NCBI RefSeq assembly: GCF_041821025.1
Contig: NZ_JBGUAY010000002.1
Location: 186,001-250,000, forward strand
DNA from: Egicoccus sp. AB-alg6-2
Lineage (GTDB): Bacteria; Actinomycetota; Nitriliruptoria; Nitriliruptorales; Nitriliruptoraceae
Direction: 5' to 3'
Length of the DNA stretch: 64,000 nt
Shown here: piece by piece, positions 13,919 to 64,000 of the stretch
Numbering within the stretch: the stretch's first letter is position 1
How the letters are laid out: each line of letters starts with the position of its first letter
Notes under the pieces: model-generated
What the model was told of the DNA's origin: nothing
What the model saw: the letters and a program-made list of their open reading frames with translations, nothing else
The model's database searches: none
Program-made: the position numbers and the translations under genes

Positions 13919-13925
13919 GCATTTC

Positions 13926-13945
13926 ATGGGTGCCGTATGGGTGCC
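13926..13945. repeat. paired ATGGGTGCC repeats beside the tRNA
   Basis: ATGGGTGCC occurs at 13926-13934 and again at 13937-13945, an 11-bp period or about one helical turn, just inside the presumed left end. Short phased repeats here could be arm-type integrase binding sites; this is inferred from position only. Confidence 0.35.
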
Positions 13946-13990
13946 ATGGTTTTGTGAGGTGACGAACACGCTCCGTTACAGCCCGTTAGT

Positions 13991-18055: not shown

Positions 18056-18056
18056 C

Positions 18057-26413: not shown

Positions 26414-26623
26414 TCAGCCGGTCGGGTCGGGAAGCCAGCCGAGCATGGCGTAGAGCTTGGCGGTGGGGACGAGCAGACGCCGCCCGATGCGGACCGAGGG
26501 GATCTCGTCGCGGGCCACGGCGCGGTAGGCGGCCGAGCGGCTGATGCTGAGCAGCTCGGCGGTCTCCGGGATGGTCATCGTCGCCGGCATGATTGTCTGG
26601 TCGGGGATCAGGGTCGCGGTCAT
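26414..26623 (-). CDS. excisionase-like helix-turn-helix protein
   Basis: Protein of 69 aa with a MerR/Xis-type winged helix: TIPETAELLSISRSAAYRAV, then EIPSVRIGRRLLVPTAKL. Proteins of this form direct tyrosine integrases toward excision or act as small DNA-binding regulators. The ATG at 26623 is preceded by AGAGGAGC. It is the first gene of the xis-small gene-int unit. Copy A of the 37-bp motif lies about 140 bp upstream, so excision is probably under the same control as transfer. Confidence 0.82.
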   Translation of the reverse strand: MTATLIPDQTIMPATMTIPETAELLSISRSAAYRAVARDEIPSVRIGRRLLVPTAKLYAMLGWLPDPTG

Positions 26624-27181
26624 GGCGGTGCTCCTCTCGTGGTCGGCTGTAGAAGGACTCCCCCCGACGCAACGTGGTTTGTGACATCGGTGGGTCCTTC
26701 GCACGCTTCGTGGTCGCGGTCCGCGCCGGTCAAGACCGCGCGGTGACGTGGTGTCGCGGGTGTGAAGGGAGTTGTCTTCGAGCCTGCCGCTGAGTGACAT
26801 CCGTGCGACCGTCGCACAATCGACGAGTCCATCTGCGAGCTCTACAACGAGGAACACTGCGACACCCACCGAGACGTCGCAGGACGACCAGAGACCACTG
26901 AGACGAGATCCTGCGAATCTGGCCCGCTGTCGAAACTCGCTCAGAACCGTGATTGCGTGCGGGTGGTGTCGCCTCAGGCTGACGCCCATCACTCGCAACA
27001 CTGGCAGGGTCAGATGCCTCTCTCCACTCGCAAGAACCACCCGCTCGCCCTAGGCCACGACCTCTCACGGCCCTGCTGAATCACGACCCGACGATTGCGT
27101 CATTTCAGCCTTCTTGCCCATAGAGTGATGACGGGTGCTGACTTGGACCGCTTCGGCACCAACCTCGCAGGGATGTGACCC
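26624..27181. other. gap upstream of the excisionase gene
   Basis: A 558-bp stretch without a convincing gene. It holds copy A of the 37-bp motif and a 15-bp palindrome (listed separately) and probably the promoters of the excisionase unit (leftward) and of the PD-(D/E)XK-like gene (rightward). Open frames on the minus strand here are extensions of the excisionase frame. Confidence 0.5.
26762..26817 (-). promoter_or_regulatory. 37-bp motif copy A plus 15-bp palindrome, upstream of xis
   Basis: On the minus strand, GTCAC (26798-26794) is separated by 13 nt from CGAAGACAACTCCCTTCAC, which ends at 26762. Four nt beyond the GTCAC lies the perfect 15-bp palindrome GTGCGAC-C-GTCGCAC (26803-26817). 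Length and spacing are identical to the copies at the relaxase and T4SS operons. Read as coding it could start with ATGTCACTC and stays in frame with xis, so a leader or N-terminal extension cannot be excluded. Confidence 0.7.
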
Positions 27182-41074: not shown

Positions 41075-42001
41075 TCAGCCGGTGATCACCGCCTGCACCT
41101 CACCCACGGTGAGCTCCCACGAGTCCGACACCTCGATCGACCCGAACACCCCGCGGTCCGCACCGTTGAGCGACCACGAAAACTCCCACCGGACCGTCAC
41201 CGAGGCGTCGAACACCCCAGAGGGCCGGATCGAGGACGAATCGGTGAACGTGTACGTGCACGCCGGGTTCCCGGTCCCGCGGACCGACTCAGGCTGCAAC
41301 TCGTAATCCGCCTGAGCCGGCTCCGACCACGGCACGCCCGGGCCCTCGCAGACGCGCACCCCCTCGTCGAGATCCCAGATCGCTTCGACAGGCCGCGCCT
41401 CGACCGACACCTCGATGCCGGTCGGCGTCGACGCTGTCGCTGACCGCGGCTGCCAGTACGACTCGTCCAACCACAACCAGGTCGCAAACCGTGTCACCGC
41501 CTGCTCCGGCGACACGGCAAAGTCCGGCGTCACCGGCTCCACACGAGCCCGCGCCTGGGCACGTGCAGCGAAGACGCCCTCGCTGTCATCCGCACTGCCC
41601 GGTTCCGGAGACGGCACCCACAACACATCACTGCGCAGATCGCCGTTGCAGTCGCGATACACACCCAGCACGTGGCCCTCGGGCGCATCCAGCCAGTTGT
41701 GCTGCTGCCGATCCCGATACGTCTCTGGAACATGCTCCGGCGGCAGAAACGAGACCCACCACGCATCCGGATCTGCCGCACGCTCCGCAGTGCACTGCGG
41801 AGCTTCTGCCTGCCCGCCCACCGGCTGCGGAGTGCTGCCGTCAGCATCGCCGCCAGGGCACGTCCCGACAGCTTCTCCGCCTCGGTCATCTATTGCTCCC
41901 GACCCTTGGCAAGGAGCCGCTGCGGCCGGGGTCGTACTCAAGATGACGAAGACGATCGCCAGCGTCCAAGTCGACGCGTTCCGCCGCCTACTGCACGACA
42001 T
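41075..42001 (-). CDS. secreted hypothetical protein of the Tad operon
   Basis: Protein of 308 aa with a signal peptide (TWLAIVFVILSTTPAAAAP-like, cleaved after AAAA). The mature part has Cys pairs (CTAERAAD, YRDCNGD, VRVCEGPG, NPACTYTF) and a Trp-rich, beta-type C-terminus ending in an acidic, Val-rich stretch. I do not recognise a named family. Its place between a membrane-anchored lipoprotein and CpaB suggests a cell-surface part of the pilus. It overlaps the upstream gene by 14 bp. Confidence 0.65.
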   Translation of the reverse strand: MSCSRRRNASTWTLAIVFVILSTTPAAAAPCQGSGAIDDRGGEAVGTCPGGDADGSTPQPVGGQAEAPQCTAERAADPDAWWVSFLPPEHVPETYRDRQQHNWLDAPEGHVLGVYRDCNGDLRSDVLWVPSPEPGSADDSEGVFAARAQARARVEPVTPDFAVSPEQAVTRFATWLWLDESYWQPRSATASTPTGIEVSVEARPVEAIWDLDEGVRVCEGPGVPWSEPAQADYELQPESVRGTGNPACTYTFTDSSSIRPSGVFDASVTVRWEFSWSLNGADRGVFGSIEVSDSWELTVGEVQAVITG

Positions 42002-43220
42002 ATCGCGTACTTCCGGGTTCGCAGTTGGTGTCGCGCGTGCCCGCTTGATCGCTCACCCGCCAAACGCCGTCGTCACCACGGCGTAGTTCCACCGACTGAA
42101 GGTCGAGCTGGCCCTCTTGAACAGGCGGGATGAGATCGTCGAGGCGAGTGCCGGTCTCGAGGTCGAAGGCGCCACGCTCTGGGACCTGGCGCGCGCAGTC
42201 GGAGACTGTGGCAGCCCCGATGCCCACCTCGAACACGACGGCGTTGTCGGTCGGAGCCGGGTCGCGGATCACAATCCCGTCCCGTTGGTGCTCGGTGAGC
42301 AGATCGCGGATGAACTCGAGTTGCGCTCCGGTCATGGTGCGTTCGAGTTCCGGATGACCGGGATCGGGCGGGTCCCAGGCGGCGTCCTTCGCTGCTCGAA
42401 AGTCGCGGTAGGCAGCCAACAGTTGGTCGTTGAGTTCTTCGGCGATGCAGAACAGGTCTCGCTGCTGAGCGGTGTCGATCCGCCAGCCATCGTTGGTGGC
42501 GACGGCGGTGGCTTCCCAGCCGGTTGTGACGGTTGCGACGCTGTCGGGTTGTCCGTCGGGGTGCTGAGCGACGATGGCGCAATCGGTGATACTGGCCTGG
42601 TCGCCCGTGACCTGGAAGCGTGGCCAGAGCTCGGTGTCGCTGGTGACGAGTCGGCTGTCGCCGCGCTGGGCGACGAGCGCTTCGATGGCACGGTCGGGAT
42701 CGACCGCAACTTCTTGGAACTCTGCAGGATCTGGGTCGTCGACCGATGCCTGCTCGACCCAGGCTGTGTGGAACGCTTCCCAGGTCGCCGCCAGTTCGTC
42801 CTCATCTGGGCGGCTGGGTTCGGCGGTCGGGGGGGCGTCGGGTGTCTCGGTTTCAACTGCGGCGGCGCTGTTGTCGGTGGCGTCCGGCTCGCGAACCGAT
42901 GTCGACGTCGGGGCCCCGGTCGAACAGGCCGCCAGTACGGCCGCCAACGCGAACGGCACCGCGATGAATGCCAGGCGCGACGGGGTGTCGCCGTGATCCG
43001 CGACCGGCACCGTCGACACAGCTGTTGGATAGTCGAGGCCCCCCATGGCAGCCCCCGTGGCCACATGCGATGCGCATTCTGAGTGGTTCTGCATCGAGGG
43101 GAGTAGTCCATCTGGGCCCGTCAGGGTGACATGAATGCGCCTGTCGCTCCACATGGGGTGCGTGGCGCACGTCACGATCGGGGGCAGGGCGGGGCCGGTC
43201 TCGGTGGGAGCCCGGGGCAT
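41988..43220 (-). CDS. putative membrane-anchored or lipoprotein of the Tad operon
   Basis: Protein of 410 aa from ATG 43220, chosen for its AAGGAGC ribosome site at 7 nt. A hydrophobic segment with a lipobox-like end (AFIAVPFALAAVLAACSTG) comes only after ~80 residues. Either the N-terminus is cytoplasmic and this is a TM anchor, or the true start is inside (for example ATG 43047) and it is a lipoprotein. The extracytoplasmic part starts with a Thr/Glu/Pro-rich linker, then two similar halves carrying TDCAIVAQ and VSDCARQV. Function unknown. Confidence 0.6.
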   Translation of the reverse strand: MPRAPTETGPALPPIVTCATHPMWSDRRIHVTLTGPDGLLPSMQNHSECASHVATGAAMGGLDYPTAVSTVPVADHGDTPSRLAFIAVPFALAAVLAACSTGAPTSTSVREPDATDNSAAAVETETPDAPPTAEPSRPDEDELAATWEAFHTAWVEQASVDDPDPAEFQEVAVDPDRAIEALVAQRGDSRLVTSDTELWPRFQVTGDQASITDCAIVAQHPDGQPDSVATVTTGWEATAVATNDGWRIDTAQQRDLFCIAEELNDQLLAAYRDFRAAKDAAWDPPDPGHPELERTMTGAQLEFIRDLLTEHQRDGIVIRDPAPTDNAVVFEVGIGAATVSDCARQVPERGAFDLETGTRLDDLIPPVQEGQLDLQSVELRRGDDGVWRVSDQAGTRDTNCEPGSTRYVVQ

Positions 43221-44818: not shown

Positions 44819-45171
44819 GAGACCGGCTCGGCGGTCAACTGCTGCGCGAACGCGGCCGCGAGCCGGTGGGGCGGCAAGCTTCGAAGCGCGGCCGGGATCG
44901 AGGGCAGCACCCAGGTCCGCCACGCCTTGCCCGACGAACTCGCCGTCGGCGGCAGGCCCTCGAGGGGCAGGCGAAGCTGACGCGGCCTACCCGGCGCACC
45001 TGGCTGCGAGTCCGGCGGCAACGCCGGCGCCGGTGTGTTCGGCGTAAGTGGATGCAGGTGCGGGTGGCCGACCCCGTCGTAGGCCAGCACCGCGCACAGC
45101 TGCTCGCGGCCTGCCTCGTCGAGGTCGCCGAGCACGGCGAGATGGACGGCCCGAATCTCGATGGTGCCCAT
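44815..45171 (-). CDS. small hypothetical protein
   Basis: Protein of 118 aa. The N-terminus MGTIEIRAVHLAVLGDLDEA and YDGVGHPHLHPLTPNTPAP is followed by a Pro-rich stretch and a C-terminal helix (PPHRLAAAFAQQLTAE). No family recognised. It overlaps the neighbouring genes at both ends, so it is almost certainly translated with the sigma-like and ArdC genes. Confidence 0.6.
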   Translation of the reverse strand: MGTIEIRAVHLAVLGDLDEAGREQLCAVLAYDGVGHPHLHPLTPNTPAPALPPDSQPGAPGRPRQLRLPLEGLPPTASSSGKAWRTWVLPSIPAALRSLPPHRLAAAFAQQLTAEPVS

Positions 45172-45863
45172 CAGGCTGACCTGGCGAACTCGGCCAGCTG
45201 CGGTCGCAGCTGACGTCGCGCCCGCGCCATCCGCTGCTTGAGCGCGCTGTGGGTGAGTCCGTGATCGGCCGCTACCGGCGCCAGCGGGAGCCGGCACGCC
45301 GCCGCACGCAGCCCGGCGCTGGTGGGACGGTCGAGCTCGCTCAGCAGCTGCTCGAGCGCGGCGGTCAGTTCGGGGTGCGGCTCGATGTTGTTGGCCACCT
45401 CCACACGTGGCAGCCGTGCGGGATCGAAGGCCCGCTCGAGCTGGCGGCGAGCGAGTTCGCGCTCGACCAGGCGGCGCATGCGGTGGGTGATCTGCTGGGC
45501 GACCTGGCGTCGCAGCCAAGGCCCGCCCGATCCGGCATCGGCGCAGCGGGCCGCGGCCAGCAGAACCTCCAGGCTCGCGGCACCCCACTCGGCCGGGTCT
45601 TGTTCGAACAGCAGCCGGCCGCGCACCAGCAGCAGCGGACGGTGGGTGTCCGCCAGCCAGCCCAGCGCCACCGGGTCGCCGGCGAGTGCGGCGGTGAGCA
45701 GCCGGCGGTAGTGGTGGTGGCAGTCGGCGTCGGGGCGTTCGACACGTGCGTCGGTGAGCGCGACGCCGACGATGCGGCGGGACTGTTGGTCTTGCTCGTC
45801 AGGGTCGAGCGATCGCCAGCGTCGGGTGATCTGCCCGAACGGGTCTGCAGGGTGGCCATCCAT
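45171..45863 (-). CDS. sigma-factor-like regulator, first gene of the Tad operon
   Basis: Protein of 230 aa. The C-terminal ~60 residues (DRPTSAGLRAAACRLPLAPV, then ADHGLTHSALKQRMARARRQ) resemble a sigma region 4 helix-turn-helix. The central part (RRQVAQQITHRMRRLVEREL) resembles region 2-like helices. It could be an ECF-type or plasmid-type RNA polymerase regulator of the element. The ATG at 45863 follows AGGAGC. It leads an operon of about 16 genes in which most neighbours abut or overlap, so it is a good candidate for controlling the pilus or the 37-bp motif genes. Confidence 0.62.
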   Translation of the reverse strand: MDGHPADPFGQITRRWRSLDPDEQDQQSRRIVGVALTDARVERPDADCHHHYRRLLTAALAGDPVALGWLADTHRPLLLVRGRLLFEQDPAEWGAASLEVLLAAARCADAGSGGPWLRRQVAQQITHRMRRLVERELARRQLERAFDPARLPRVEVANNIEPHPELTAALEQLLSELDRPTSAGLRAAACRLPLAPVAADHGLTHSALKQRMARARRQLRPQLAEFARSA

Positions 45864-46344
45864 CGGGGCTCCTCTGATCGGGGAGCACCACGCTGAAAGT
45901 GGGCCGCTTCAACCCCGTGACAGCGGCGTGGCCGAAACCGATACAGCCGAACGAAGTTGGCGGCGTCCGTCGTGAAGCGGCGTGAAGCGGCCCGTAGACG
46001 CCCGTGTTGCCGCTTCAATCGCGTGACACCTAGCTCCACCGACCCGCGGCATCACGGCCACGGTCGGCGCCGATGCCGCCTCGCTGCGCCCGCCCGACGG
46101 ATGCTGACGACAACCTCGTTGGCGGCGGCCAGGTCGACCATGGACGTGGCGCGAGCGCGGGGCGACGGCGAGCGTCACTGAAGACGTGCCACCGGGATGT
46201 GCCGTCGCCTTCGTACCGGCGACCGGACGGAGGACGTGACCCAGCCGTCAACGTCTCGGCTCGCCCGACAGGCGGCCCCTTGCTCGTCGACGACCGTCTT
46301 GGTCGGCGTGCGGGTGGCTCCGTCAGCGCCCTCGCCGGCCGGTG
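45864..46344. other. control region upstream of the Tad operon
   Basis: A 481-bp stretch without a convincing gene. It contains four copies of a CCGCTTCA-type motif (listed separately). The rest shows no clear feature; longer open frames on the plus strand are low-complexity Arg/Ala-rich. Confidence 0.5.
45904..46028. repeat. CCGCTTCA / TGAAGCGG repeat cluster
   Basis: CCGCTTCAACCCCGTGACA at 45904-45922 and CCGCTTCAATCGCGTGACA at 46010-46028 are 19-bp direct repeats with two differences. Between them CGTGAAGCGG occurs twice in tandem (45971-45980 and 45981-45990), the inverse of the same core. Such mixed-orientation repeats upstream of the operon could be an operator array or iterons. Confidence 0.55.
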
Positions 46345-46811: not shown

Positions 46812-46854
46812 GATGCACAAGGAGCGCTCACCCATGACCGCCTACCGCATCCAT

Positions 46855-46891
46855 GTCACTTTCCGACCTCCTCGAAGACAACTCCCTTCAC
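46855..46891 (+). promoter_or_regulatory. 37-bp motif copy B, upstream of the relaxase
   Basis: GTCAC (46855-46859), 13 nt, then CGAAGACAACTCCCTTCAC to 46891. Same length and spacing as the other copies, and it points toward the relaxase start 73 bp away. The palindromic centre seen in copies A and C/D is not conserved here. Confidence 0.7.
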
Positions 46892-46963
46892 GAACCGAAA
46901 CGGAGACACACCAATGCATCACCAGATCCAGCTGGGCGGCCGGGGCGGCCGGGCGGGTGTGTG

Positions 46964-49900
46964 ATGTTGAGCGTGAAGAAGATCCTGGCGGGCCGCGGGG
47001 CGGTCCACTATTACCTGGACCAGACCCGCCGCGGCCTTGCCGACTACTACCTGCCCGAACCCGACGGCGACGGTGCGGTGGGGGAGCGGCTGGCCGCGCC
47101 AGGCTCGGCGTGGTGGGGAGGCGGCGCCCAGGCGTTGGAGCTGGATGGGCCGGTGGAGCGGGCCCAGTTCGTGCCGCTGTACGCCAAGGGCGTCCGACCT
47201 GAAGGCGGCTATCTCGGCCGCAAGTTCCGCACCCAAGAAGACGCCGCCCAGACTCGCGCCGACCGGCTTGCTGCGACCGAGCAGACTCCCGATCCGTTCG
47301 AGCGGTGGCAGGCCCGCCAGCAGCTGGCACGGTCGGGACCTCAGGCGTCAGTGGCAGCGTGGGACGCGACATTCTCGCCGGTCAAGTCGGTGTCGTTGCT
47401 GTGGGCCGCAGGCGACCGCAACATCCAGCAGCAGACCTGGGCCGCACATCTCGCGGCGGTCGACGCCGGGCTCGGCTACCTGCAACAGCATGCGGCGTTC
47501 GTGCGTGCCGGCCGCAACGGCATCCGCGTGCTCGACACCGACGGGCTGGTCGTCGCCCGCATGAACGAGTGGACCTCCCGCGACGGGGACATGCAGCTGC
47601 ACACCCACTGTCTGATCCTCAACCGCGCCCGCACCACCGAAGACGGCCGGTGGCGGGCGCTCGACGGTCGGGCGTTGCTGGCGGCGAAGGTCGGTGCGGC
47701 GGCGATCTATCACCGGGTGCTCGAAGCTGAGCTGAGCCGCCGGCTCGACGTCGCGTGGCGTGACCGGCCAGATGGGCTACGCGAGCTCGACGGCGTCTCG
47801 GACGAGCTCATCGAGGCGTTCTCCACCCGACGGCGGGCCATCACCACCGAGGTCGACCGGCTCGCAACTGCCTACCAGGACCGCTACGGCACCCCACCAC
47901 CCGCGGCCGTGCGCCACCGCATGGCCCAAGACGCCACGCTCGCGACCCGCCGTTCCAAGCGCGATCCGACACCCGACGAAGCGCTCGACGCATGGGAGGC
48001 CACCGCCCGCCGACACGGCACCGACCTGGCCGCCCTGCCGCACCAGGTCGTCGGCCGCAGCGCACCGGGCGCCCACCACCAGTCGACGCGTGACGAACTG
48101 GGGCTCCTGCTCGAACGGCTCGCCGACACCGACCGCGCCAGCTTCACCCGCCACGACCTGCTCCGCGTTGCCCTCGACGTCGTGGAGGTCGGCACACAGC
48201 CCACCGCCGAACTCCGCGAGCACGCCGATCGCCTCGTAAACCGGCTGCTGGCCAGCGAGCTGGTCGTGGCGGTGCACGCCGACGATCCGCTCGAGGTCGG
48301 TGACAACTTCCGACGGGCGGATGGCAGCTCGGTGTTCACCCGTCACGCCCGCCAACGGTGGGCGTTGGCCACCACGCTCGACCGCGAGGCATGGCTGCTA
48401 AAGGTCGCCGGAGAACCTTGCCCCCTGAGCGTCGACGAGGGCACGGTCACCGACGCGGTGCGGCGGCACCGTCTCGGCGGCGACCAGGCCAGCGCGGTCC
48501 GTGAACTGCTCGAAGCGGAGCAGCGGATCGGGCTGCTGGTCGGTCCGGCCGGCGCTGGCAAGACCCGCACGTTGCGTGCCGTGGTCGACGCCTGGCAGGC
48601 AAGTGGCGGCAACGTGGTCGGGCTGAGCGTGTCGCAAGCCGCCGCTGAGGTGCTCGCCACCGAAGCGCAGGTCCGGGCGGAGAACACCGCGAAGTGGCTC
48701 TACGAGACACGCCGTGGACACTGGCAGACCCCCGCCCGTCCGCTGCTGTTGATCGACGAAGCGTCCATGATCTCCACCAACGACCTCGTGGCGCTCGTCG
48801 CCCAGACCCGGCAAGCCGGCGGAAAGGTCCTGCTCGTCGGCGACCCCGCCCAGCTGTCCGCCATCCGCATCGGCGGCGCGTTCGACCTGCTCGCCGAACG
48901 GCACGGTGCCGCACGGTTGCGCGAGATCCGCCGGTTCACCAACGCCTGGGAAGCCGAGGCGAGCCTGCTGCTGCGAAACCGTGACCCGCAAGCGATCGAC
49001 GCCTACGCGATGCGCGGCCGGATCCACGGCGGCCGTCTCGACGAGATCGAGACCGCGCTGTTCGACGCGTGGAAGGCAGACGCGCTCGGCACCGACGAGC
49101 ACGGGCAACGCGAGTCGGTGCTGATGATCGTGGCCACCAACGAACAGGCCGCCATGCTCGGCGAACGCGCCCGCCGCGCACTCATCGCCGCCGGTCACGT
49201 CGCCGACGGGCCGACCGTGACGTTGGCCGACAACCTGGCATCGGTCGGCGACCATCTTGTCACACGTCGAAACGACCGCCGGCTCACCTCCACTGACGGT
49301 GGTTGGGTCGTCAACGGCCAGACCTGGACCATCACCCACATCTATGCCCACGGTGACGCCGACGTGATCCGTCACAGCGACCGCGCCAGGCTGCGGCTGC
49401 CCGCTGACTATCTCGCCGTCCACGCCCACCTCGCCTACGCCACCACCGCGCATCGTGCTCAAGGCATGACCGTCGACCGGGCCCACGCCGCCGTCGATGC
49501 CGAGACCACCCACCAGCAGCTGTATGTGGCTGCCACCCGCGGTCGGCACAGCAACGAACTGTGGGTCGCGCTCGACTCCGACCGCGACCTCGTCGCCGAC
49601 GACACTCACCTGCCCGACCCGCATCAGCTGCTCGCCCGCATGCTGGCGCGGCGCGATCCTGATCGGCTCTCTGCCCATCAGCTCGCCGACGACAGCCAGC
49701 GCGAGATGCACTCCCTTGCACGGCTTGGCGCCATCTTCGAAGACGCCGCACGGCGCATGACCGGCAGCTGGCTCGCCGCCCGGCTCGCCGACCGCGGGCT
49801 CGACCGCGCCGTCGATGAAGCCGAATGGGGCAGCCTGCTTGACCGTGTCCGCCACCTCGCTCTTCAAGGCCACGACCTCGACCAACTCTTCGACCAGGCG

Positions 49901-50656
49901 ATCGCGATGCGTCCCCTCGACCAGGCCCACTCCGTCGCTGGGGTGCTCCACTGGCGGCTCGGACAACTCGCCGAGCAGACCCCGCCGACGCGTCGACCGG
50001 GCCCGCTGCGCTCGCTGCCCACCGTCGACCCCGCAGACGAACATGCCGCACTTGCGCGGACGGCAGGGGAGCTCATCCGTCACCGCTGGCAGCACATCCG
50101 TGCCCAGCTCGCCGACACCGACCAGCTGCCGGCCTTCGCCCGCACCCTCGGCCCTCGGCCCGCCGATCCGGCCGAGCGCCGCTCGTGGCTCAACGCCGCC
50201 ACGACCATCGTCGCCTACCGCGAGCGCTACGACCTACCCGGCCACGTCGAGCTGCTCGGCCAGCGTCCCGGAGCACTGCGCCCCGACGCCCAAGCGGCCT
50301 ACGACCACGCCCTCCACCAGCTCGACCTTCACCTCGTCCGCCCCTACCCCCGTCTCGATCCCACCGAACGCGACGTGCTCCGCCAGCAGCTCGACAGCGC
50401 CATCGACAACGTTCCCTTCAACCCTCAACAGTTGCAGGACGAACACTGCGCCGCAGCCGACAGCCGCCGTGCCTGGACCGCTGCCAGCGTGCCCGACCGT
50501 CCGCAGCGAAGAGCTGACTACGAGCAACATCTCGCTGCTGTCGACGCACTCGAAGCGGCCGCATCCGCCCACCAGCAGGCCCGACAGCAACGCGCCGACC
50601 GTGACGACCAGCGACGACGGTTCGGCATCGGCATCCGCCGTGCACAACGGAGCTGA
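46964..50656 (+). CDS. MobF (TrwC-type) conjugative relaxase-helicase
   Basis: Protein of 1230 aa. The N-terminal TrwC relaxase domain has Tyr-rich HYYLDQ and ADYYLPE, the FSPVKSVSLLWA segment, and the metal-binding LHTHCLILNRA near 211-221. The central RecD-like SF1 helicase has Walker A GPAGAGKTRTL near 527-537, LLLIDEASMIS, VGDPAQLSAI and the C-terminal AYATTAHRAQGMTV box. The last ~300 residues are helical. It nicks oriT and unwinds the transferred strand. The ATG at 46964 begins MLSVKKILAG, the family start; the frame is open back to 46853 through motif copy B. Confidence 0.9.
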   Translation: MLSVKKILAGRGAVHYYLDQTRRGLADYYLPEPDGDGAVGERLAAPGSAWWGGGAQALELDGPVERAQFVPLYAKGVRPEGGYLGRKFRTQEDAAQTRADRLAATEQTPDPFERWQARQQLARSGPQASVAAWDATFSPVKSVSLLWAAGDRNIQQQTWAAHLAAVDAGLGYLQQHAAFVRAGRNGIRVLDTDGLVVARMNEWTSRDGDMQLHTHCLILNRARTTEDGRWRALDGRALLAAKVGAAAIYHRVLEAELSRRLDVAWRDRPDGLRELDGVSDELIEAFSTRRRAITTEVDRLATAYQDRYGTPPPAAVRHRMAQDATLATRRSKRDPTPDEALDAWEATARRHGTDLAALPHQVVGRSAPGAHHQSTRDELGLLLERLADTDRASFTRHDLLRVALDVVEVGTQPTAELREHADRLVNRLLASELVVAVHADDPLEVGDNFRRADGSSVFTRHARQRWALATTLDREAWLLKVAGEPCPLSVDEGTVTDAVRRHRLGGDQASAVRELLEAEQRIGLLVGPAGAGKTRTLRAVVDAWQASGGNVVGLSVSQAAAEVLATEAQVRAENTAKWLYETRRGHWQTPARPLLLIDEASMISTNDLVALVAQTRQAGGKVLLVGDPAQLSAIRIGGAFDLLAERHGAARLREIRRFTNAWEAEASLLLRNRDPQAIDAYAMRGRIHGGRLDEIETALFDAWKADALGTDEHGQRESVLMIVATNEQAAMLGERARRALIAAGHVADGPTVTLADNLASVGDHLVTRRNDRRLTSTDGGWVVNGQTWTITHIYAHGDADVIRHSDRARLRLPADYLAVHAHLAYATTAHRAQGMTVDRAHAAVDAETTHQQLYVAATRGRHSNELWVALDSDRDLVADDTHLPDPHQLLARMLARRDPDRLSAHQLADDSQREMHSLARLGAIFEDAARRMTGSWLAARLADRGLDRAVDEAEWGSLLDRVRHLALQGHDLDQLFDQAIAMRPLDQAHSVAGVLHWRLGQLAEQTPPTRRPGPLRSLPTVDPADEHAALARTAGELIRHRWQHIRAQLADTDQLPAFARTLGPRPADPAERRSWLNAATTIVAYRERYDLPGHVELLGQRPGALRPDAQAAYDHALHQLDLHLVRPYPRLDPTERDVLRQQLDSAIDNVPFNPQQLQDEHCAAADSRRAWTAASVPDRPQRRADYEQHLAAVDALEAAASAHQQARQQRADRDDQRRRFGIGIRRAQRS

Positions 50657-55800: not shown

Positions 55801-58086
55801 CTAGGCGACTGCAGTTCCGGTGGCGGGGTGGGCGTGGCGGATGTCGACGGCGAGTTGGGGGAGGCAGGCTTCCCAACATGCGCGCAGCTGGTCGGTGAGG
55901 TCGAGGTGGGGCCACTCGGCATGTAGTTGCGGGAAGCTGAGGTGCTGCTCGATCGAGGTAGCAGGGCCAACTTCGAGCCAGATGGGCAGCACGGCACGGC
56001 GGATGTGCACGTCGGCGAGGTCGGCGTGTGTGTGGCCGACGATGTTCGCGACCCTGTCGGGTAGCCGCACTTCGCGCCACGCACCGGGGCGGAGCCTCAG
56101 CTGATCGGGGACGGCTTCGCTGCCCGGAAACCAGATTTCGCGGCTGTAGCCGTCCGTAGGCAGCACCGTGTCGCCGACCTCGCTGCCGGTTGGCCGGGCG
56201 GCCTCAGGGGAGGTCTGGTCTGCAGCCGGGCGCGCTGTGACCGCGGGCAGGCGGGCGGACCAGTTGGTGGCGTCGAGGATTTGGCGGGTGGTGGCGGCGG
56301 CGGGGCCGTGGATGCGTCGGTGCTGTTCGAGCACGTGGGTGGGGACGTGACGTCGCCAGCGGGGCTGCTGGTAGTAGGCGTGGGTGGTGATCAGTGCGGG
56401 CGGGTGGTTGCCGGTGAGCATGACGGCGTTGCCGTGGGGCAGGGTGCGCAAGAACGCGGGTGGGGCGACGTCGATGCGTTCGGACCCTTCCGAGACCGAC
56501 AGACCGCCGTCTGGGGCGGCCGAGATGGTGGAGGAGGCGACCCACTGATCACCGATTAGGTCGGACAGCAGTTTGAGGGTGTCGAGATCTTGGGTTCCTG
56601 GGAGCCACACGGTGGTGGTGTGGTTGGCGATGACGGTGCGTTCGGCTTCGCCGTAGATGGCACGGATCTGGGCGCGGTCCTGCCAGATCGTCATCAGCGT
56701 GATGCCCTGCCCGGCGCCGGTGGACGCGATGGTCGGCAGGGTCTTGAGCGGGGCGATGTTGCCGGCTTCGTCGAGCATCATCAGCAGCGGCGGGCTCAAC
56801 GGTGCGCCTTGCAAGATGTTGGCGGAGAGCTCGACGGCGGTGCGGTAGACGGCCTGGACGAGCGCGACGAACAGCGGCCGCAGCTCGGCCTGTTCGTACT
56901 CGGGCGCGACGAGGTAGAGGGTGCCGTTGTCTTTGAGCATCTCGCCGATCGACAGGGCATTGTCGATATCGCCCGGCGTTGCCGAGGTGGCTTGCTTGAC
57001 GCGGGGGGAGCCGAATGCACGGAAGATGGCCATGGCGGTGCCGAACACCGATCCGCGCGTTTCGTTGGGAAGCCCACGGATCGCCTCCCACGAGGCGCGC
57101 GCATCTTCGTCCTCGAGCTGGGTCAGGATCTTGGCGACATCGTCGAAGGCGCCGCGATCGACCCAGTGCGACACATCCGACATGCGGCGGCCGGTCGTCG
57201 CGGCGGCGAACAGCATGGGGGCGAGCAGCTTGGTCGCCAGGGTCTCCCAGAACTTGGCGTTGTCGTGGTTGTCGGCGACCGCGGCGGCGTCGGCGAGCCA
57301 CCCGGCGGTGCGGGTCGCATCCGCGAACGTGGTGGAGGTCAACAGCGGTGACCAGCGGATCGAGTCGAGCCCGGTCGCGCCGGTGGGGTCGAACAGGTAG
57401 GTCGGGCCGAGTTGGGTGCGGCGGTCGACGGTGAGGTCGTAGACGTCGCGTTTGACCGAGGTGACCAGGGCGGGGCCGTCCCAGCGCAGCAGATTTGGCA
57501 CGACGAGTCGGCTGGTCTTGCCGGTACGGGTCGGTGCGATGGCCATCACCGATGTGCGTGCGGGGACGAGCACGTCGTGATGTTGATGGCTGCCGATGAT
57601 CAGACGGCCGGCGGCGGCAGGTTCGTCATGGTTGCCGGCGGGTGGGGCGGCCAGCAGGTCGCCCAGGTCGCGGCGGCGGGCCCACACCCGAGAGCCGATC
57701 CGTTCGGCGTGGCGTTGCCGGTGCCGCCATCCGCTACGCCACTCGAACCAGGCACGCCCGGCCCGCATCGCCACCGCCAGTGTGGCGATGGTGAGCAGCA
57801 TGGCGATGGCGGCGGGACGCCACCACACGTCCACGCTGTCGGCGAGTCTCGAGTCGGCGTGGTTGGCGGCCAGGTCGACAAGGGCGGCGGGCATGTCGAG
57901 CACACCGACCTCAAAGCGGCTGCCCGCGAACAGAGCTTCGATGTGCAGTGCGGTCCAGGCGATCGTGGAGACGGCCAGCACCGTGAGCGCGGCGGCCAGC
58001 GCGAGCATGGCCCACACGATCTCGAGCGCGTTGGGACCGCCTGCGGTGAGCTTGCCCGAGCGCGGTAGTGGCGGTATGGGGTTCAC
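55801..58086 (-). CDS. VirD4/TraG-like type IV coupling protein
   Basis: Protein of 761 aa. Two TM helices (near 20-45 and 90-110) are followed by a P-loop ATPase: Walker A APTRTGKTSRLVVP, Walker B PLLMMLDEAGNIAPL, and the coupling-protein landmarks WETLATKLLAPMLFAA and YLVAPEYEQ. The C-terminal ~200 residues are variable. It should connect the relaxosome with the mating channel. The GTG at 58086 overlaps the VirB4-like stop by 4 nt (GTGA). The frame open to 58209 is not needed. Confidence 0.87.
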   Translation of the reverse strand: MNPIPPLPRSGKLTAGGPNALEIVWAMLALAAALTVLAVSTIAWTALHIEALFAGSRFEVGVLDMPAALVDLAANHADSRLADSVDVWWRPAAIAMLLTIATLAVAMRAGRAWFEWRSGWRHRQRHAERIGSRVWARRRDLGDLLAAPPAGNHDEPAAAGRLIIGSHQHHDVLVPARTSVMAIAPTRTGKTSRLVVPNLLRWDGPALVTSVKRDVYDLTVDRRTQLGPTYLFDPTGATGLDSIRWSPLLTSTTFADATRTAGWLADAAAVADNHDNAKFWETLATKLLAPMLFAAATTGRRMSDVSHWVDRGAFDDVAKILTQLEDEDARASWEAIRGLPNETRGSVFGTAMAIFRAFGSPRVKQATSATPGDIDNALSIGEMLKDNGTLYLVAPEYEQAELRPLFVALVQAVYRTAVELSANILQGAPLSPPLLMMLDEAGNIAPLKTLPTIASTGAGQGITLMTIWQDRAQIRAIYGEAERTVIANHTTTVWLPGTQDLDTLKLLSDLIGDQWVASSTISAAPDGGLSVSEGSERIDVAPPAFLRTLPHGNAVMLTGNHPPALITTHAYYQQPRWRRHVPTHVLEQHRRIHGPAAATTRQILDATNWSARLPAVTARPAADQTSPEAARPTGSEVGDTVLPTDGYSREIWFPGSEAVPDQLRLRPGAWREVRLPDRVANIVGHTHADLADVHIRRAVLPIWLEVGPATSIEQHLSFPQLHAEWPHLDLTDQLRACWEACLPQLAVDIRHAHPATGTAVA

Positions 58087-59624
58087 GGCCGCCCCCGCTC
58101 GTCCAGTGCGGCCGCCATTTGGGTGTCGGTGTCCACCAGGAGCTGCTCGGCGGGGGAGAGCAGGTGGTCGACGAGGTGGGTGGTGCGTTGCTCGCCGTTG
58201 ACCACCCACAGGCCGCGGCCACGACCGAGCCGGGTGGCCAGCCGTGCCTGCAACGTGTTGAGCTGGAGCACGTCGCGTAGCAGCGGCTGTTCGCCGGAAC
58301 TCTGGCGGTAGATGATCCAGGTGCCGGCGTCGGCGATGACCCCCTCGGCGAGCGCGCGGGTTGCCGTGTCGGCGTTGCCGGCGGCGGCGGTATCCGAGAG
58401 ACGATGCAGGACGTTGACCACCGACAGCGACAGCGCGCGAGAAAGCTTGGCGTTGGTCTGCAGCCAGCGGGCGGACGCTTCGTCGGACAGCAGCGCCCAG
58501 GCTTCGTCGTTGACCTGGAACCGGCCGCGCCCGTCGGCGGTGTCGCCGGCCAGTTGCAGCCAGGCGGCCACGGCGATCATCACCAGCGGCAGCAAGGGGC
58601 GGTGGTGGCGGTAGATGTGGCGGATGTCGACCACCGTGAGCCGACCGAGCTGGTCGGTGTCGAGGGTGGTGGGTCCGGCGAACATGCCACCGAGATCGCC
58701 GTGGGGGTCAACGAGTCGGGCGGCCGCGAGGGCAAGTTCGCGTGACTCGTCGACGACCCGGGCCGGGTCCATGTTGAGCCGGCCGGCGACGTGGCTGTCG
58801 GGTGCGATCATCGCCTCGGCAACCATCGGCAACGTCACGGTCTGCCCACGACCGCCGACCCGCAAGTGGTCGTCGAGGTCGGTCAGTTCCAGTCCGGCAA
58901 CCCGCGCCAGTGAGGCAGCAGCCAGGACCAGCTCCAGTTGCCGGCATGCCCGTCCGAGCACGGCTTCGAGCAGTGCACGCAGGGTGGCGAGGTTTCGGTG
59001 AAACAACTCGGTCGGGGCGAGCCGGGCACCGGCCGTGCCCGGGTCGAGCGGGTTCAGGACTACGTCGCCGCCCGGACGCAGATCGATCGGGACGGTGCCG
59101 GCGGCGTCGGCGAGTGGGCCGTACTCGCCTTTGGGGTCGATGATGTGGGCGCCGCGGCCGAACTCCAGCCCTCGCCATACGAGAGTCTTGACCAGCGATG
59201 ACTTGCCCGCCCCGACGTCGCCGAGCACGAGGATGTTGGGGTTGGACAGCTTGCCTTGGGCGTAGCGGACCCACGGGTCGAAAGTGAACATCCCGCCGGT
59301 TGCTGACGGTCCGATCAGTATCCCGCCGGCGTTGGTGGCGGGTCGGGAGGCGACCTGGAATGGATAGACCGCTTCCAGGTGGCCGGTGGCCAGCTCAAGT
59401 GGCGGTACAGGGGTCTCGTACAGGATCCTTCCGGCGAACCGGCGTCGCTGACCACGGCGGCCGCCGAGCCCGCGGTAGCGGGCGGCGGTGGCCCGCTTCT
59501 GGGTGAGCTCGTCACGGCGTGCTGCGGCACGCTCGCGTTTGGCCGCTGCGGCGTCGGGCCGGCCGCCGGCAGGGGTACGGGCGGTGGTGGCGATCCGCCG
59601 TAGTCGTCGTGGCGGGCGGCGCAT
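58083..59624 (-). CDS. VirB4-like conjugation ATPase
   Basis: Protein of 513 aa. An Arg-rich N-terminus is followed by a P-loop with Walker A LGDVGAGKSSLVKT and Walker B FQVNDEAWALLSD, plus the VirB4-family IIDPKGEYG and FAGPTTLDTDQLGRL segments. It is shorter than proteobacterial VirB4 because the N-terminal VirB4 part is provided by the neighbouring SCO6880-like protein, the usual split in actinobacteria. The ATG at 59624 shares one base with the upstream stop (TAATG). Confidence 0.85.
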   Translation of the reverse strand: MRRPPRRLRRIATTARTPAGGRPDAAAAKRERAAARRDELTQKRATAARYRGLGGRRGQRRRFAGRILYETPVPPLELATGHLEAVYPFQVASRPATNAGGILIGPSATGGMFTFDPWVRYAQGKLSNPNILVLGDVGAGKSSLVKTLVWRGLEFGRGAHIIDPKGEYGPLADAAGTVPIDLRPGGDVVLNPLDPGTAGARLAPTELFHRNLATLRALLEAVLGRACRQLELVLAAASLARVAGLELTDLDDHLRVGGRGQTVTLPMVAEAMIAPDSHVAGRLNMDPARVVDESRELALAAARLVDPHGDLGGMFAGPTTLDTDQLGRLTVVDIRHIYRHHRPLLPLVMIAVAAWLQLAGDTADGRGRFQVNDEAWALLSDEASARWLQTNAKLSRALSLSVVNVLHRLSDTAAAGNADTATRALAEGVIADAGTWIIYRQSSGEQPLLRDVLQLNTLQARLATRLGRGRGLWVVNGEQRTTHLVDHLLSPAEQLLVDTDTQMAAALDERGRP

Positions 59625-61126
59625 TAGCGGGCCCCCCGACACAGCGGCAGCGTGAACGACGCGGCCTGGCGTTGTGTGCCGACCAGACGGCGCAGCTCGA
59701 GCCCGCAGCGGCGGGCGGCCGTCTCGACCTGCCCGACCGCGATGTCGAGCTCGGAGATGGCCGGCGCGGTGATGGTGATGGTCCACACGAGCCGGAACAC
59801 CGCCCGGCCATCGACCAGATCGGCTTCACGCTGCGCGGCGTCGCCGTGGCTGCGCCGGTGGCGGGCGGAGGCCGAAAACCCCCACCGCTGCCGCAGGGCC
59901 TGTTCGGATTCGGCGGTGACCTGTTGGGTCTGCGCCCGCCGTTCCGCCGTTTGTGGTGGGGTGGGGACGTACAGCAGCGACATGCGGCGTGTGGCCGGCA
60001 CACCGATGAGTAGATGTTGGAGGAACTCGCCGGTGACCGGCCGTGATGGCGGACCGGTGACCTGGCAGGTGGCGGCCCAACCGGACTCGAGGCGCAGCGC
60101 CGTCCAGGACTCGACCATGGCCGCGGGCCCGGCCGCGGTCGCATCGCAGCCGGCCCCGGTGTTGACGTCGTCGCCGCGGGCGTCGAGCTCGCCGGCCGCG
60201 GCCGGGTCGAACCCGGCGCGGAGCACGGCGGCGAGCTGTCGGGCGGGCAGCCATCCGTGGACCTCGATCCCGGCGCCTGCCAGGGCCGGTTCGAGCTGTG
60301 CGCAACGGTCGAGCAGCACGGTGGCGGCGCCGTCACGGCCACCGCCGGCGTGGCGGATCTGCCTACGGGCGCCACGCCGGTCCAGCGCCACCGCAAGCAG
60401 TAGCCGGTGCTGCTGGCCGGCCGTCGCGGCCGTCTCGAGCAGCTGCCGATACGAGGCGGCGGTCGCGTCGTTGCCGTGGCCGCCGTGCTGGCCGTGCCAA
60501 CCGGTGGTCGGTCCTGCAGTCGCTGGGGCGCACAGGTGCACCAGTTGCAGTCGGACCAGCTCGGGCATCGACTGGCCGATGTGGTCGAGCAGGCTGCCCC
60601 ACCCGGCGAAGCGGGCCTGTTGCTCATCGCCGTCGAGAAACAGCAGATCGTGGCCCGACACCTCGCAGATGGCGACCAGCCGGTCGCGGTAGGTGTCGAT
60701 CACGATGCCGTAGTCGGCGACGGTGGGGCTGGCGACACTCGCCCGCGGTTGCGTGGCGGTGTAGGCGTGCAGTTCGAGCCCGAACAGCTCGCCGGGTAGA
60801 TCGAGCACGCCGGCGGGCAGCGGCGGGTTGGCGAGATCGCACGACGCGTAGAACTCGTTGTTGCGGGTCGCCTGCCGCCACACGAACCCGACCGCAACAG
60901 GCAACCACTCCACCAGCGCCCGGCCGGCAACCTTGACGGCGGCCGCCGCGATCAGGCCGACGATCAGAAGCCCACCCGCCACGACCGCGGCCGGCGACGG
61001 GCGCGCCACGACGACGATCAGGATCACGCCTGCGCCGCCGAGCGTGATCAATCGTGACAGCGACAGACCAAACAGCAGCCCGACCGCCGGGCGGGCAGGG
61101 AAGCGGTAGGTCGGCAGCTCAGTCAC
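59624..61126 (-). CDS. SCO6880-like transfer protein
   Basis: Protein of 500 aa. Two N-terminal TM helices (ITLGGAGVILIVVVARPSPA, then VVAGGLLIVGLIAAAAV) precede a cytoplasmic region resembling the SCO6880 family and the VirB4 N-terminal domain (VIDTYRDRLVAICEVSGHDL, then VQLVHLCAP). It is expected to form one complex with the VirB4-like ATPase downstream. It overlaps its neighbours at both ends. Confidence 0.8.
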   Translation of the reverse strand: MTELPTYRFPARPAVGLLFGLSLSRLITLGGAGVILIVVVARPSPAAVVAGGLLIVGLIAAAAVKVAGRALVEWLPVAVGFVWRQATRNNEFYASCDLANPPLPAGVLDLPGELFGLELHAYTATQPRASVASPTVADYGIVIDTYRDRLVAICEVSGHDLLFLDGDEQQARFAGWGSLLDHIGQSMPELVRLQLVHLCAPATAGPTTGWHGQHGGHGNDATAASYRQLLETAATAGQQHRLLLAVALDRRGARRQIRHAGGGRDGAATVLLDRCAQLEPALAGAGIEVHGWLPARQLAAVLRAGFDPAAAGELDARGDDVNTGAGCDATAAGPAAMVESWTALRLESGWAATCQVTGPPSRPVTGEFLQHLLIGVPATRRMSLLYVPTPPQTAERRAQTQQVTAESEQALRQRWGFSASARHRRSHGDAAQREADLVDGRAVFRLVWTITITAPAISELDIAVGQVETAARRCGLELRRLVGTQRQAASFTLPLCRGAR

Positions 61127-62472
61127 GACTGGCCCCCAGCTGGCTCGCGAGTGAACGCCCCGCCCCAGCCCTGCTCAGCCCTGCTCGGCGACGTCGACGG
61201 TCGCTGCCCTTGTGTCGGGGAGCCGGCCGACGACACGGCAGCGGACATCCGGCTCGACGAGCCAACCTCGGTGCGAGCCGTCGTCGGCGCCGCGGACGAC
61301 CCGGACTGTGCAACCGCAGGACCGGATGCCGCGGTCGCGGACGAACCACCGCCCGTGCCGACGTCGGGCCCGCTGCCACCGGCCGAGCCCGCGCCCGCGC
61401 CGGGGCCCGGCCCGTCGCTTGCGGACCCTGTACCGCCTCCACCGCCACGGCCGCTGGCGGCTGCGGCCCCTGCGGCCGACGCGCCGGTGGCCGCGGCGAG
61501 CAGTGCGCCCTTGGCGGCCATGATCCCGGCCCCGGCAGCGACCACCCGGGAGCCGCGGGTCATCGACTGCACGGCCGTGTGTAGCTCTGGCAGGCCGATG
61601 ATGCGGGCCAGCGCGGCCGGGGCGAGTGCGGCAAGCAGCAGTCCGAAGGTGCCAAAGATCAGCCGGTCGACCCCTTGAGGCTGGCCGATGACGGTGTTGG
61701 TGACCGCGAACATGGTCAGGATCGCCGCGTCGGCGAGCAGCACCGCCAATCCCAGCGCCCACGTACGGACCTCGACGCGCCGCATCGGCGTCCATACCCC
61801 CAGGGCGTGGGCGATAGGCAGGAACACGATCACCGCCGCAAGCAGCACCGGCCGCATCGCCAGGGTGAAATAGATCGCCAGGGAGGTGAACACGATCACC
61901 AGCCCGGCCAGGAACGCGATGAACAGCTCCGCGCCCGCCTCGCGCTGCTCGGCGGTGTCCATGAGCACTTCTTGCAGCGGCACAAGTGGCGCGTCCACTC
62001 CGGCGCCCGACGCATCCAGCGCGATGCGGCCAATTTCGGACAGGGCGCCGCCGATGGCCAGCAGCAGCCCGGCACCGATGGTGGCGAGCATGCCGGCGAC
62101 GATCGCACGAATGACGGCCTGCACGATCCGGGTCGTATTGCCGGTCACGATCCCGGCGATGGTTTCGGCGATCAGCGTGGCGACCATCACCAGCGCGGCC
62201 AGTGCGTACAGCGGCAGTGCCGGCCCCTCGAGCACGGGCGTGTACCAGTCGGTCGTGGTCGGCGCCGTCGAGGCCTGCAGCGCCACCAGATCCAGCGCCC
62301 AAAAGGCCCCGCGCAGCACCCACGCGGTCAGCTCCCCGCCGGCCTGACCGAGAAGCATCTGCGACCACTCGCCGCCAGCCCACGCCGCGCCGAGCACCCC
62401 GCCCAGGGCGATGACCCCGACCACCACGAACGGGATCGCCCCCTGCTCGTCACGCAACCCGCGGCAGCTCAC
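61123..62472 (-). CDS. TrbL/VirB6-like polytopic transfer protein
   Basis: Protein of 449 aa with about six to seven TM helices in the first ~310 residues (for example VVVGVIALGGVLGAAWAGGE and LFIAFLAGLVIVFTSLAIYF) and a low-complexity Gly/Ser/Ala/Pro tail. Size, topology and place between the SCO6880-like and one-TM genes match TrbL/VirB6, the inner-membrane channel part of the T4SS. Confidence 0.78.
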   Translation of the reverse strand: MSCRGLRDEQGAIPFVVVGVIALGGVLGAAWAGGEWSQMLLGQAGGELTAWVLRGAFWALDLVALQASTAPTTTDWYTPVLEGPALPLYALAALVMVATLIAETIAGIVTGNTTRIVQAVIRAIVAGMLATIGAGLLLAIGGALSEIGRIALDASGAGVDAPLVPLQEVLMDTAEQREAGAELFIAFLAGLVIVFTSLAIYFTLAMRPVLLAAVIVFLPIAHALGVWTPMRRVEVRTWALGLAVLLADAAILTMFAVTNTVIGQPQGVDRLIFGTFGLLLAALAPAALARIIGLPELHTAVQSMTRGSRVVAAGAGIMAAKGALLAAATGASAAGAAAASGRGGGGGTGSASDGPGPGAGAGSAGGSGPDVGTGGGSSATAASGPAVAQSGSSAAPTTARTEVGSSSRMSAAVSSAGSPTQGQRPSTSPSRAEQGWGGAFTREPAGGQS

Positions 62473-63224
62473 GAGGTCGGCTCCACGAGCGCGAAGTCGG
62501 GTAGCGGCAGTGGCAGCACCGGCGCGGCGTCACGGACCATGGCCCGGGTACGGCCTGGCGCGGACGGGCTGTCGTACACCATCGGCACCGGGCCCTCGAC
62601 GGTGTCGAGCGTGGTGACTCGCCAGGTTCCGGTGGTGTCATCGGCGACAAGCTCGACGGTTGAGGTGGTGAACACCGCACCGCCGTTGTCGCCGACGCCG
62701 ACCAGCGTCATCGCCCACACCTCAACGCTGGCGGTCAGCGCCTGCGGATCGAACGCCGTGACCCGTACCGCGAGTGGGGAGAGGTGATACATCCGTCGTG
62801 AGGCGGGCTGCTCTGCCCAGCCTGAAAGCTCGAAGTTGGTCCGGGCCGTCTCGACCTGCCGCGCCTGCAGCTCGGCCTCCGCCGGTGTGAACATCGCCTT
62901 CGCGATCTGGGTAAACCGTTCCGGGTCGAACGCGAACTCGGCCTGGCCGGTAACGCCCACGACTGCAAGTGCTGCGGATGCGGCCCCGGGGCGGTCCAAC
63001 GCGAATCCCCAAGGCACCCCCTCGACCAGCTCAGCCACCTCAAACCCCGACCCGTCGGCCGTGGTGTTGGCGGGTGAGGTCTCGACCGGGGCGGCCGTGT
63101 CGGGTGTGCCGATGCCGCGCACGACCAGCCAGCCGCCGCCGACCGCCAGCACCGCCAGCAGCAGGCCGGCACCAACCAGCCACACGGTCTGCATCCGTGT
63201 CCGTGTTCCGTAGTCGTCTGCCAT
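62469..63224 (-). CDS. one-TM conjugation protein (TcpC/VirB8-like position)
   Basis: Protein of 251 aa: one N-terminal TM (VWLVGAGLLLAVLAVGGGWL) and an extracytoplasmic domain of NTF2-like build (KAMFTPAEAELQARQ, then VEVWAMTLVGVG). Gram-positive transfer systems carry TcpC/VirB8-type proteins of this form here. Family assignment is by topology and position. It overlaps the TrbL-like gene by 4 nt. Confidence 0.65.
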   Translation of the reverse strand: MADDYGTRTRMQTVWLVGAGLLLAVLAVGGGWLVVRGIGTPDTAAPVETSPANTTADGSGFEVAELVEGVPWGFALDRPGAASAALAVVGVTGQAEFAFDPERFTQIAKAMFTPAEAELQARQVETARTNFELSGWAEQPASRRMYHLSPLAVRVTAFDPQALTASVEVWAMTLVGVGDNGGAVFTTSTVELVADDTTGTWRVTTLDTVEGPVPMVYDSPSAPGRTRAMVRDAAPVLPLPLPDFALVEPTS

Positions 63225-63228
63225 CGCT

Positions 63229-63528
63229 CTAGCTCCCCAACCGGAAACCGGTGTTGACGATCGCGACGGCCGCGCCGATCACGATCGCGCCGACAAATCC
63301 TCCGATGACCATGAACCGGCCCCAGGTCACCCCTTGGGTGTGGGCGCGGTTGGCGGCCAGCGCCCATGTCGCGCCCCCGACGACCACGACCCCGGCGGCG
63401 AACAGCAGCCCCGCCAAGGTCAGCCCGTTGAGCGCCGAGATGAGCTGGTCGTAGTTCGGAATCCACTGCGCTCCCCGTGACGGGTCGAGCCCAGGGACCG
63501 GGTTTGCCTGTGCAAGCACCGTCACCAC
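63229..63528 (-). CDS. DUF6112-like small T4SS membrane protein (VirB2/TrbC-like)
   Basis: Protein of 99 aa. After a short N-terminus with NYDQLISALNGLTLAG come two TM helices (LLFAAGVVVVGGATWALAA and MVIGGFVGAIVIGAAVAIVN) around a basic loop. This is the form of VirB2/TrbC pilin-like proteins; DUF6112 genes hold the same first place in actinobacterial transfer operons. It is the first gene of the minus-strand operon that ends at 55054, and motif copy C lies just upstream. Confidence 0.75.
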   Translation of the reverse strand: MVTVLAQANPVPGLDPSRGAQWIPNYDQLISALNGLTLAGLLFAAGVVVVGGATWALAANRAHTQGVTWGRFMVIGGFVGAIVIGAAVAIVNTGFRLGS

Positions 63529-63570: not shown

Positions 63571-63667
63571 CGCAAGGGAGTTGTCTTCGAGGACGCCGAA
63601 AAGTGACATCCGTGCATCTGTCGCACGCTTGTCACCCGCGGACGGCGGTCGGAACAACTCCCTTCAC
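63571..63667. promoter_or_regulatory. symmetric dyad of 37-bp motif copies C and D
   Basis: Copy C (63571-63607, minus strand) and copy D (63631-63667, plus strand) face away from each other around a centre at 63619. Reading outward on both sides from GTGC-N7-GCAC (63612-63626) there are 4 nt, GTCAC, 18 nt, then ACAACTCCCTT. All spacings are equal on the two sides. Copy C points to the T4SS operon and copy D to the lipoprotein gene. This fits a shared divergent operator-promoter. Confidence 0.75.
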
Positions 63668-63679
63668 ACGGAGGGAGCC

Positions 63680-64000
63680 ATGCGCCTACCTGTCGCCGTG
63701 CTCGCGGTCGCCACGTTTGCGGTGGCCGCCGGTTGCGCCCGCCCGCCGGCACCGTCGCCGCAACACGCCGACGCGGCCGGGGCCGCCGCATCGCACGCGG
63801 CGTTGGGCCCCGCACCCGCCGAAGAACGGAGCCGGCCGTCGTACGGCCACGGGCTCGATCGGCCCGGTATGTACCGCTCGGGTTGGTCCCGACCGGCTGA
63901 CGGCGACGAACCCGGTCCGTCGGCAGTCGCGGCCAACGAGATCGTGCGACGCTTCGCGGACGAGCAGTTGACCGTCCTCGACCTGCAGGCAGATCCCGAA
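63680..64000 (+). CDS. lipoprotein, partial (runs off the window)
   Basis: The first 107 codons are visible. A short signal peptide (RLPVAVLAVATFAVAAGC) has the lipobox AAGC with Cys19. An Ala/Pro-rich linker follows, then the start of a folded region (NEIVRRFADEQLTVLDLQ). The ATG at 63680 follows GGAGGGAG. It is divergent from the T4SS operon and shares the dyad with it, so it is probably part of the transfer regulon, perhaps a surface or mating-contact protein. The C-terminus is outside the window. Confidence 0.75.
   Translation, partial: MRLPVAVLAVATFAVAAGCARPPAPSPQHADAAGAAASHAALGPAPAEERSRPSYGHGLDRPGMYRSGWSRPADGDEPGPSAVAANEIVRRFADEQLTVLDLQADPE

Follow-up and report, generated by a model that had tools for sequence, protein, structure and literature searches.

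The dyad at 63574-63664 of the window (the whole 64,000-nt stretch of Egicoccus sp. AB-alg6-2 DNA analyzed here) is read by us, with a probability of about two in three, as a divergent promoter pair of a transfer regulon that spans an integrative conjugative element (ICE) and is read by the element's own ECF-type sigma factor and a palindrome-binding activator. Each half of the dyad would form a complete promoter of about 50 bp, with an activator box, a -35 TGTCAC, an 18-nt spacer, and a -10 ACAACTCCCTT, and at 63.6 kb two such promoters would face away from each other over one common palindrome. RNA polymerase with the divergent ECF-type sigma factor encoded at 45171-45863 is proposed to read the -35/-10 pair, and a dimeric activator on the palindrome would assist the polymerase. 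Because the same unit also lies before xis, a Tad-like operon, and the relaxase gene, one signal could co-activate excision, DNA processing, the surface apparatus, and the mating channel. Little is described on the control of T4SS-type ICE transfer in actinobacteria in the literature that we found; the present proposal offers a complete predicted regulon with five promoters, one unit, and a named candidate regulator.

The near-perfect dyad with equal spacing that the initial annotation had reported was borne out. It is centered at 63619 with equal spacing to the left and right, every part described was found in place, and its core recurs far beyond chance. The T4SS-directed unit on the minus strand has a -10-like ACAACTCCCTT at 63574-63584 (the top strand reads AAGGGAGTTGT) and a -35-like TGTCAC at 63603-63608 (top strand GTGACA). 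The lipoprotein-directed unit on the plus strand has its -35-like TGTCAC at 63630-63635 and its -10-like ACAACTCCCTT at 63654-63664. N18 separates the two boxes in both halves. Between the units lies the central palindrome GTGCATCTGTCGCAC (63612-63626, assigned to neither strand), an operator-like box that reads GTGC-N7-GCAC and matches GTGCG-N5-CGCAY at 9 of 10 positions. Read toward the gene, the unit of about 50 bp is GTGC(G)-N5-(C)GCAY, 3 nt, TGTCAC, N18, and ACAACTCCCTT, with a start codon a short way downstream. We rejected a global symmetry score as proof of the dyad: 3 of 300 Markov-null sequences, each 250 bp long, also attain the 27 matching pairs at a half-width of 48, several other centers in the window score 27-30 pairs, and such symmetry is unexceptional in GC-rich DNA (69% GC here). 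Since units of this design also occur singly elsewhere, with no dyad, the 91-bp symmetry arises as a side effect of two divergent putative promoters with a common 15-bp palindrome. The stretch 63574-63664 is very probably a regulatory site, and most likely one for both sides, in line with the control of both directions first suggested for it.

Exactly four perfect copies of the core, AAGGGAGTTGT-N18-GTGACA, were found across the genome's 3.74 Mb, confined to a single ICE and oriented gene-ward; they precede xis, the MobF relaxase gene, the T4SS operon, and the lipoprotein/lytic-transglycosylase/WhiB operon. The rest of the genome, outside the element, has no exact core. At three or fewer mismatches the window contains five matches versus 0.06 expected, the fifth copy (two mismatches) being upstream of the Tad-pilus-like operon. 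A whole-genome DNA search with the dyad region returned two further places, both in the window and both in the same element. The half-motif also occurs at 26.8, 43.1, and 46.9 kb, sites that had been overlooked in the first reading. On the minus strand, the complete unit toward xis/int spans 26765-26817, with a 10/10 palindrome at 26803-26817, TGTCAC at 26794-26799, and ACAACTCCCTT at 26765-26775. A second, degenerate unit lies between this unit and xis (26652-26704, minus strand) and consists of a palindrome-like sequence at 26690-26704 (9/10), ATGTCAC, N18, and GGGAGTCCTTC. The unit before the Tad-pilus-like operon (43097-43149, minus strand) has a palindrome-like sequence at 43135-43149 (9/10), TGTCAC, N18, and ACTACTCCCCT, and the unit toward the relaxase gene spans 46836-46888 on the plus strand. 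Two tandem units, like those before the window's xis, were also seen at the xis promoters of L093, L095, L112, and L113 (G006 C94 and G009 C26).

The element was classified as an ICE because it encodes a tyrosine integrase (24722-25987, minus strand), an excisionase (xis, 26414-26623, minus strand; HTH_17, TIGR01764), a MobF (TrwC/TraA-type) relaxase (46964-50656, plus strand), a VirD4 coupling protein (labeled from Pfam), a VirB4-like ATPase, and Tad/T2SS-like proteins. With att repeats added to integrase, excisionase, MobF relaxase, VirD4, and VirB4-like ATPase, the features of a T4SS-type ICE are present. The T4SS operon (55801-63528, minus strand) starts with a 99-aa gene (63229-63528), followed by genes for VirB8-like, VirB6-like, VirB4-like, and VirD4 proteins; the VirB8-, VirB6-, and PrgI-like labels in this operon are putative and were assigned by position. 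A lipoprotein-like gene (41988-43046, minus strand) is the first of the Tad-pilus-like operon and is followed by SAF, T2SSE, T2SSF, and Tad proteins at 35-42 kb. On the other side of the dyad, the lipoprotein gene (63680-64000, continuing to 64144, plus strand) heads an operon whose next genes, past the end of the window, encode a lytic transglycosylase (L064:141-1187) and then a WhiB-like protein (L064:1187-1960; PF02467, 7e-17).

A 24-bp direct repeat, CATGGGTGCCGTATGGGTGCCATG, occurs at 13925-13948 and at 68828 (L064:4828-4851), and the copy at 13925 is 32 nt past a tRNA-Met (CAT). The same repeat brackets a 9.3-kb insert beside tRNA-Met in another genome (G010). The two copies are the probable att pair, and the ICE boundary is probable rather than proven because the integrase gene adjoins neither repeat. 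From the repeat here and in G010, tRNA-Met appears to be an integration hot spot. Three large genes at 14828-23764, encoding an SNF2/NOV_C helicase, a DUF1156-type methylase, and a DUF499 ATPase, resemble defense-system cargo. Past the right repeat, at L064:8072-10400, neighboring JAB-like and ThiF/E1-like ORFs possibly form a ubiquitin-like defense operon. The gap between the relaxase unit and its gene (46914-46964) contains a conserved ATGCATCACCAGATCCAG that is kept in several relatives; translated, it could give a 16-aa leader that overlaps the start of the relaxase gene, and it may be a leader peptide or part of oriT.

Five further genomes of the family, presumably the Nitriliruptoraceae, also have the two-box core, and a reversed control pattern gave no match. 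At high stringency, the core is absent from all other families in the class. Across six genomes, 20 units stand before the same kinds of genes, the relaxases being 33-82% identical; the unit precedes relaxase or xis genes even where the relaxase is only 33% identical to that of the window. TGTCAC is present in 20 of the 20 aligned units, as a part of the search key itself. An arm-blind search, with only the palindrome and TGTCAC, gave 15 matches in 36 genomes versus one for the control, and nearly all of these were the same promoters or their tandem neighbors. The T4SS/lipoprotein dyad occurs also in G011, and the motif is present at the homologous T4SS promoters of G011, G016, and G006 C148, where its absence would have spoken against the initial annotation. 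By these comparisons, a role of the unit in a regulon is well supported. Occurrence throughout the phylum was considered and rejected: outside the family just two single matches with one mismatch were found, which is chance level because three genomes had a match to the control. Viral contigs gave three exact core matches, none with a palindrome or ICE genes, and these were judged to be chance.

The -10 arm differs between ICEs in a coordinated manner. In the complete genome of G016, the ICE carries a sigma gene of 45% identity, and window-type units are absent. TGTCAC-N20-CAGTCCCT (one mismatch or fewer) occurs at five places in this 5.6-Mb genome, all in the ICE and none in the genome of the window. 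They lie at the lipoprotein and T4SS genes (as a divergent dyad), at the relaxase gene, beside the sigma/Tad genes, and at xis, and thus correspond to the five promoters of the window. TGTCAC and its spacing are retained, and the arm has changed from ACAACTCCCTT to GCAGT(C/A)CCT at five of five promoters. The arms do not drift freely, an outcome that the initial annotation had named as refuting; those of G016 changed together. Such a simultaneous change points to a reader of the -10 region that is specific to the element. A CAGTCCCT-type arm was also found at the T4SS/lipoprotein pair of G006 C148, where the units are 77 bp apart versus 22 and neither is lost, and both units of G030 have a third arm, GGCAGTGGT. 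G006 C78 encodes a relaxase 82% identical and a sigma factor 44% identical to those of the window, and its units are CAGTCCCT-type. This suggests that the arm type tracks the sigma gene and not the relaxase gene. The co-variation rests on three arm types because only five sigma genes are known. With three arm types for three lineages of sigma genes, nature provides a swap experiment.

The protein encoded at 45171-45863 (minus strand, 230 aa) had been suspected as the element's own regulator, and this fits the data, since it resembles a divergent sigma-70/ECF-type sigma factor. TIGR02937 (sigma70-ECF) is matched by all five members of its family, with 1.1e-6 at best, and Sigma70_r4_2 by three of the five; the window protein itself scores 17.5 bits on TIGR02937, under the curated cut-off of 42.9. 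A profile built from this family retrieves bona fide ECF sigma factors, i.e. canonical Sigma70_r2/r4 proteins. The AlphaFold2 model (mean pLDDT 78.7) was compared with solved structures by Foldseek, and the top 24 PDB matches were all sigma factors or holoenzyme entries, at weak E-values of 0.095 at best. VIA-align gave Z of 8-9 (up to 8.8), values that helical models commonly reach. Close relatives of the protein were found only in the order Nitriliruptorales among the collections searched, the plasmid collection gave no match, and a sequence search of solved structures gave nothing meaningful. This sigma factor is most likely the reader of the -35/-10 pair, which is the best inference. Autoregulation of its gene through the unit was rejected, as a unit was looked for upstream of the gene and not found. 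The region upstream of it, 45903-46028, has four GAAGCGG/CCGCTTC boxes and a 20-nt direct repeat, GCCGCTTCAA(C/T)C(C/G)CGTGACA, and resembles a separate operator array for the sigma gene. In G011 the boxes are kept at -47, -117, and -127, and the fourth is displaced by 10 bp.

ECF41 promoters have a -35 TGTCACA and a -10 CGTC at a distance of 16+-1 nt (PMC3426412). TGTCAC is identical with the first six bases of this -35. Unlike CGTC at 16+-1 nt, the -10 here is ACAACTCCCTT/GCAGTCCCT or GCAGT(C/A)CCT after N18, and the protein ends with its region-4 helix at residue 229, without the fused C-terminal regulatory extension. Because -10, spacer, and domain layout differ, we rejected 45171-45863 as an ECF41 sigma factor.

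The gap from the end of a strong palindrome to TGTCAC is either 3-5 or 13-15 nt, each in promoter families of its own, and gaps of 6-12 nt were not seen. The displacement equals one helical turn. This suggests a protein that has to face RNA polymerase, for which a shift by one turn is expected. The statistics of helical phase are indicative only, because related promoters are non-independent; they were treated as independent in the test, and the consensus was taken from the same data. Palindrome sites around 22-24 nt, whose scores are close to background or equal to it, were left uncounted. We rejected the palindrome as the box of a host regulon, since together with TGTCAC it matches only the xis unit in its own genome, and as an att or Xis arm site, since it does not cluster at the att repeats.

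The phasing of the palindrome, which suggests that a palindrome binder exists, agrees also with a mechanism like that of SetCD or AcaCD. Here a single activator on the palindrome and adjacent DNA would recruit the housekeeping sigma factor, TGTCAC and the ACTCCC arm would be no more than parts of a weak sigma-A promoter, and 45171-45863 would act elsewhere. In AcaCD promoters, too, a putative -35 comes after an activator box made of an inverted repeat, and sigma-70 is thought to be recruited through the activator (PMC4605294). We consider this mechanism unlikely, with perhaps a fifth of the weight to its credit. Within an element, the arm at -10 distance hardly varies, and it lacks TANNNT, a -10 that at 13-22 nt spacing is found in none of the five window units. 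The arm was altered at all five G016 promoters at once, and a Pfam scan of about 30 ICE proteins revealed no FlhC/FlhD-like protein.

The predicted regulon resembles known transfer regulons such as the SetCD regulon of SXT/R391 ICEs (PMC4344509) and the AcaCD regulon of IncA/C plasmids, which is exploited by SGI1 (PMC4605294, PMC5058578). As in both, the same box recurs ahead of xis and of multiple transfer operons (here five units in each ICE, in the window's genome, G000, and in G016), and an inverted-repeat box adjoins a -35; as with AcaCD and SGI1, mobilizable satellites have the same box before xis. Their activators are FlhDC-like and recruit sigma-70, whereas the candidate reader here is a sigma factor, the -35 and -10 both depart from the canonical sequences and are strongly conserved, and the element resides in a high-GC actinobacterium. 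In pSAM2-type AICEs, Pra activates repSA-xis-int and KorSA represses (PMC3218068). These are likewise actinobacterial ICEs with xis/int under positive control, as is predicted here. They use an FtsK-like translocator, unlike this element, in which a MobF relaxase, VirD4, and a T4SS all fall within the regulon.

Far less probable is regulation by the WhiB-like protein, which would act on sigma-A beside the -35 in the manner of WhiB7-type proteins. This protein is clearly a WhiB, is encoded in a dyad-driven operon, and is kept in G011 and G006 C148, but a search of 95 kb in the ICE region of G016, where all five units are present, yielded no WhiB homologue. To our knowledge WhiB proteins do not require a palindrome, which we also counted against this regulator. 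Slightly less probable again is the reading of the initial annotation, one very long repressor operator with cooperative binding of several protomers or a DNA loop. Three box pairs in perfect mirror spacing speak for it, but half-units without a mirror partner precede xis, relaxase, and Tad genes here and in many relatives, and both units of G006 C148 were retained with 77 bp between them in place of 22. Least probable is a role in DNA processing (as oriT, attachment site, or recombination hot spot), since the confinement of the site to mobile elements near relaxase and xis genes is outweighed by five oriented copies per ICE, including the T4SS region, each aimed at a downstream start codon, and by the separate candidate att repeat at 13925 and 68828.

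Returning to the ECF-type sigma factor as reader, a wider proposal is tentative, and we put it at somewhat below even odds: an actinobacterial ICE family would carry its own ECF-type sigma factor as transfer master switch, with a private -10 code for each lineage, a common -35 and phased palindrome, and satellites whose code is copied from the exploited ICE. If true, promoter code and sigma factor would define compatibility groups of ICEs and satellites, and satellites might be matched to helper ICEs by promoter sequence alone. Contigs of several relatives have xis, a divergent relaxase gene, and an integrase gene, with the unit before xis, and a profile search of these contigs found no sigma gene in the small elements. 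The small elements resemble integrative mobilizable elements and would probably respond to a co-resident or incoming ICE, much as SGI1 responds to AcaCD. In G011 they have the same arm type as the resident ICE. G006 has small elements of ACAACTCCC type, yet no close relative of the type-A sigma factor was found in its fragmented, 91% complete assembly, which leaves the satellite argument with a gap. The Xis proteins of small elements L046, L047, and L127-L130 are 65-87% identical to that of the window across the HTH, and the integrases and relaxases of the same elements reach just 32-38% identity, apart from a short segment of one integrase with up to 48%. Such conservation of Xis is unusual for a directionality factor.
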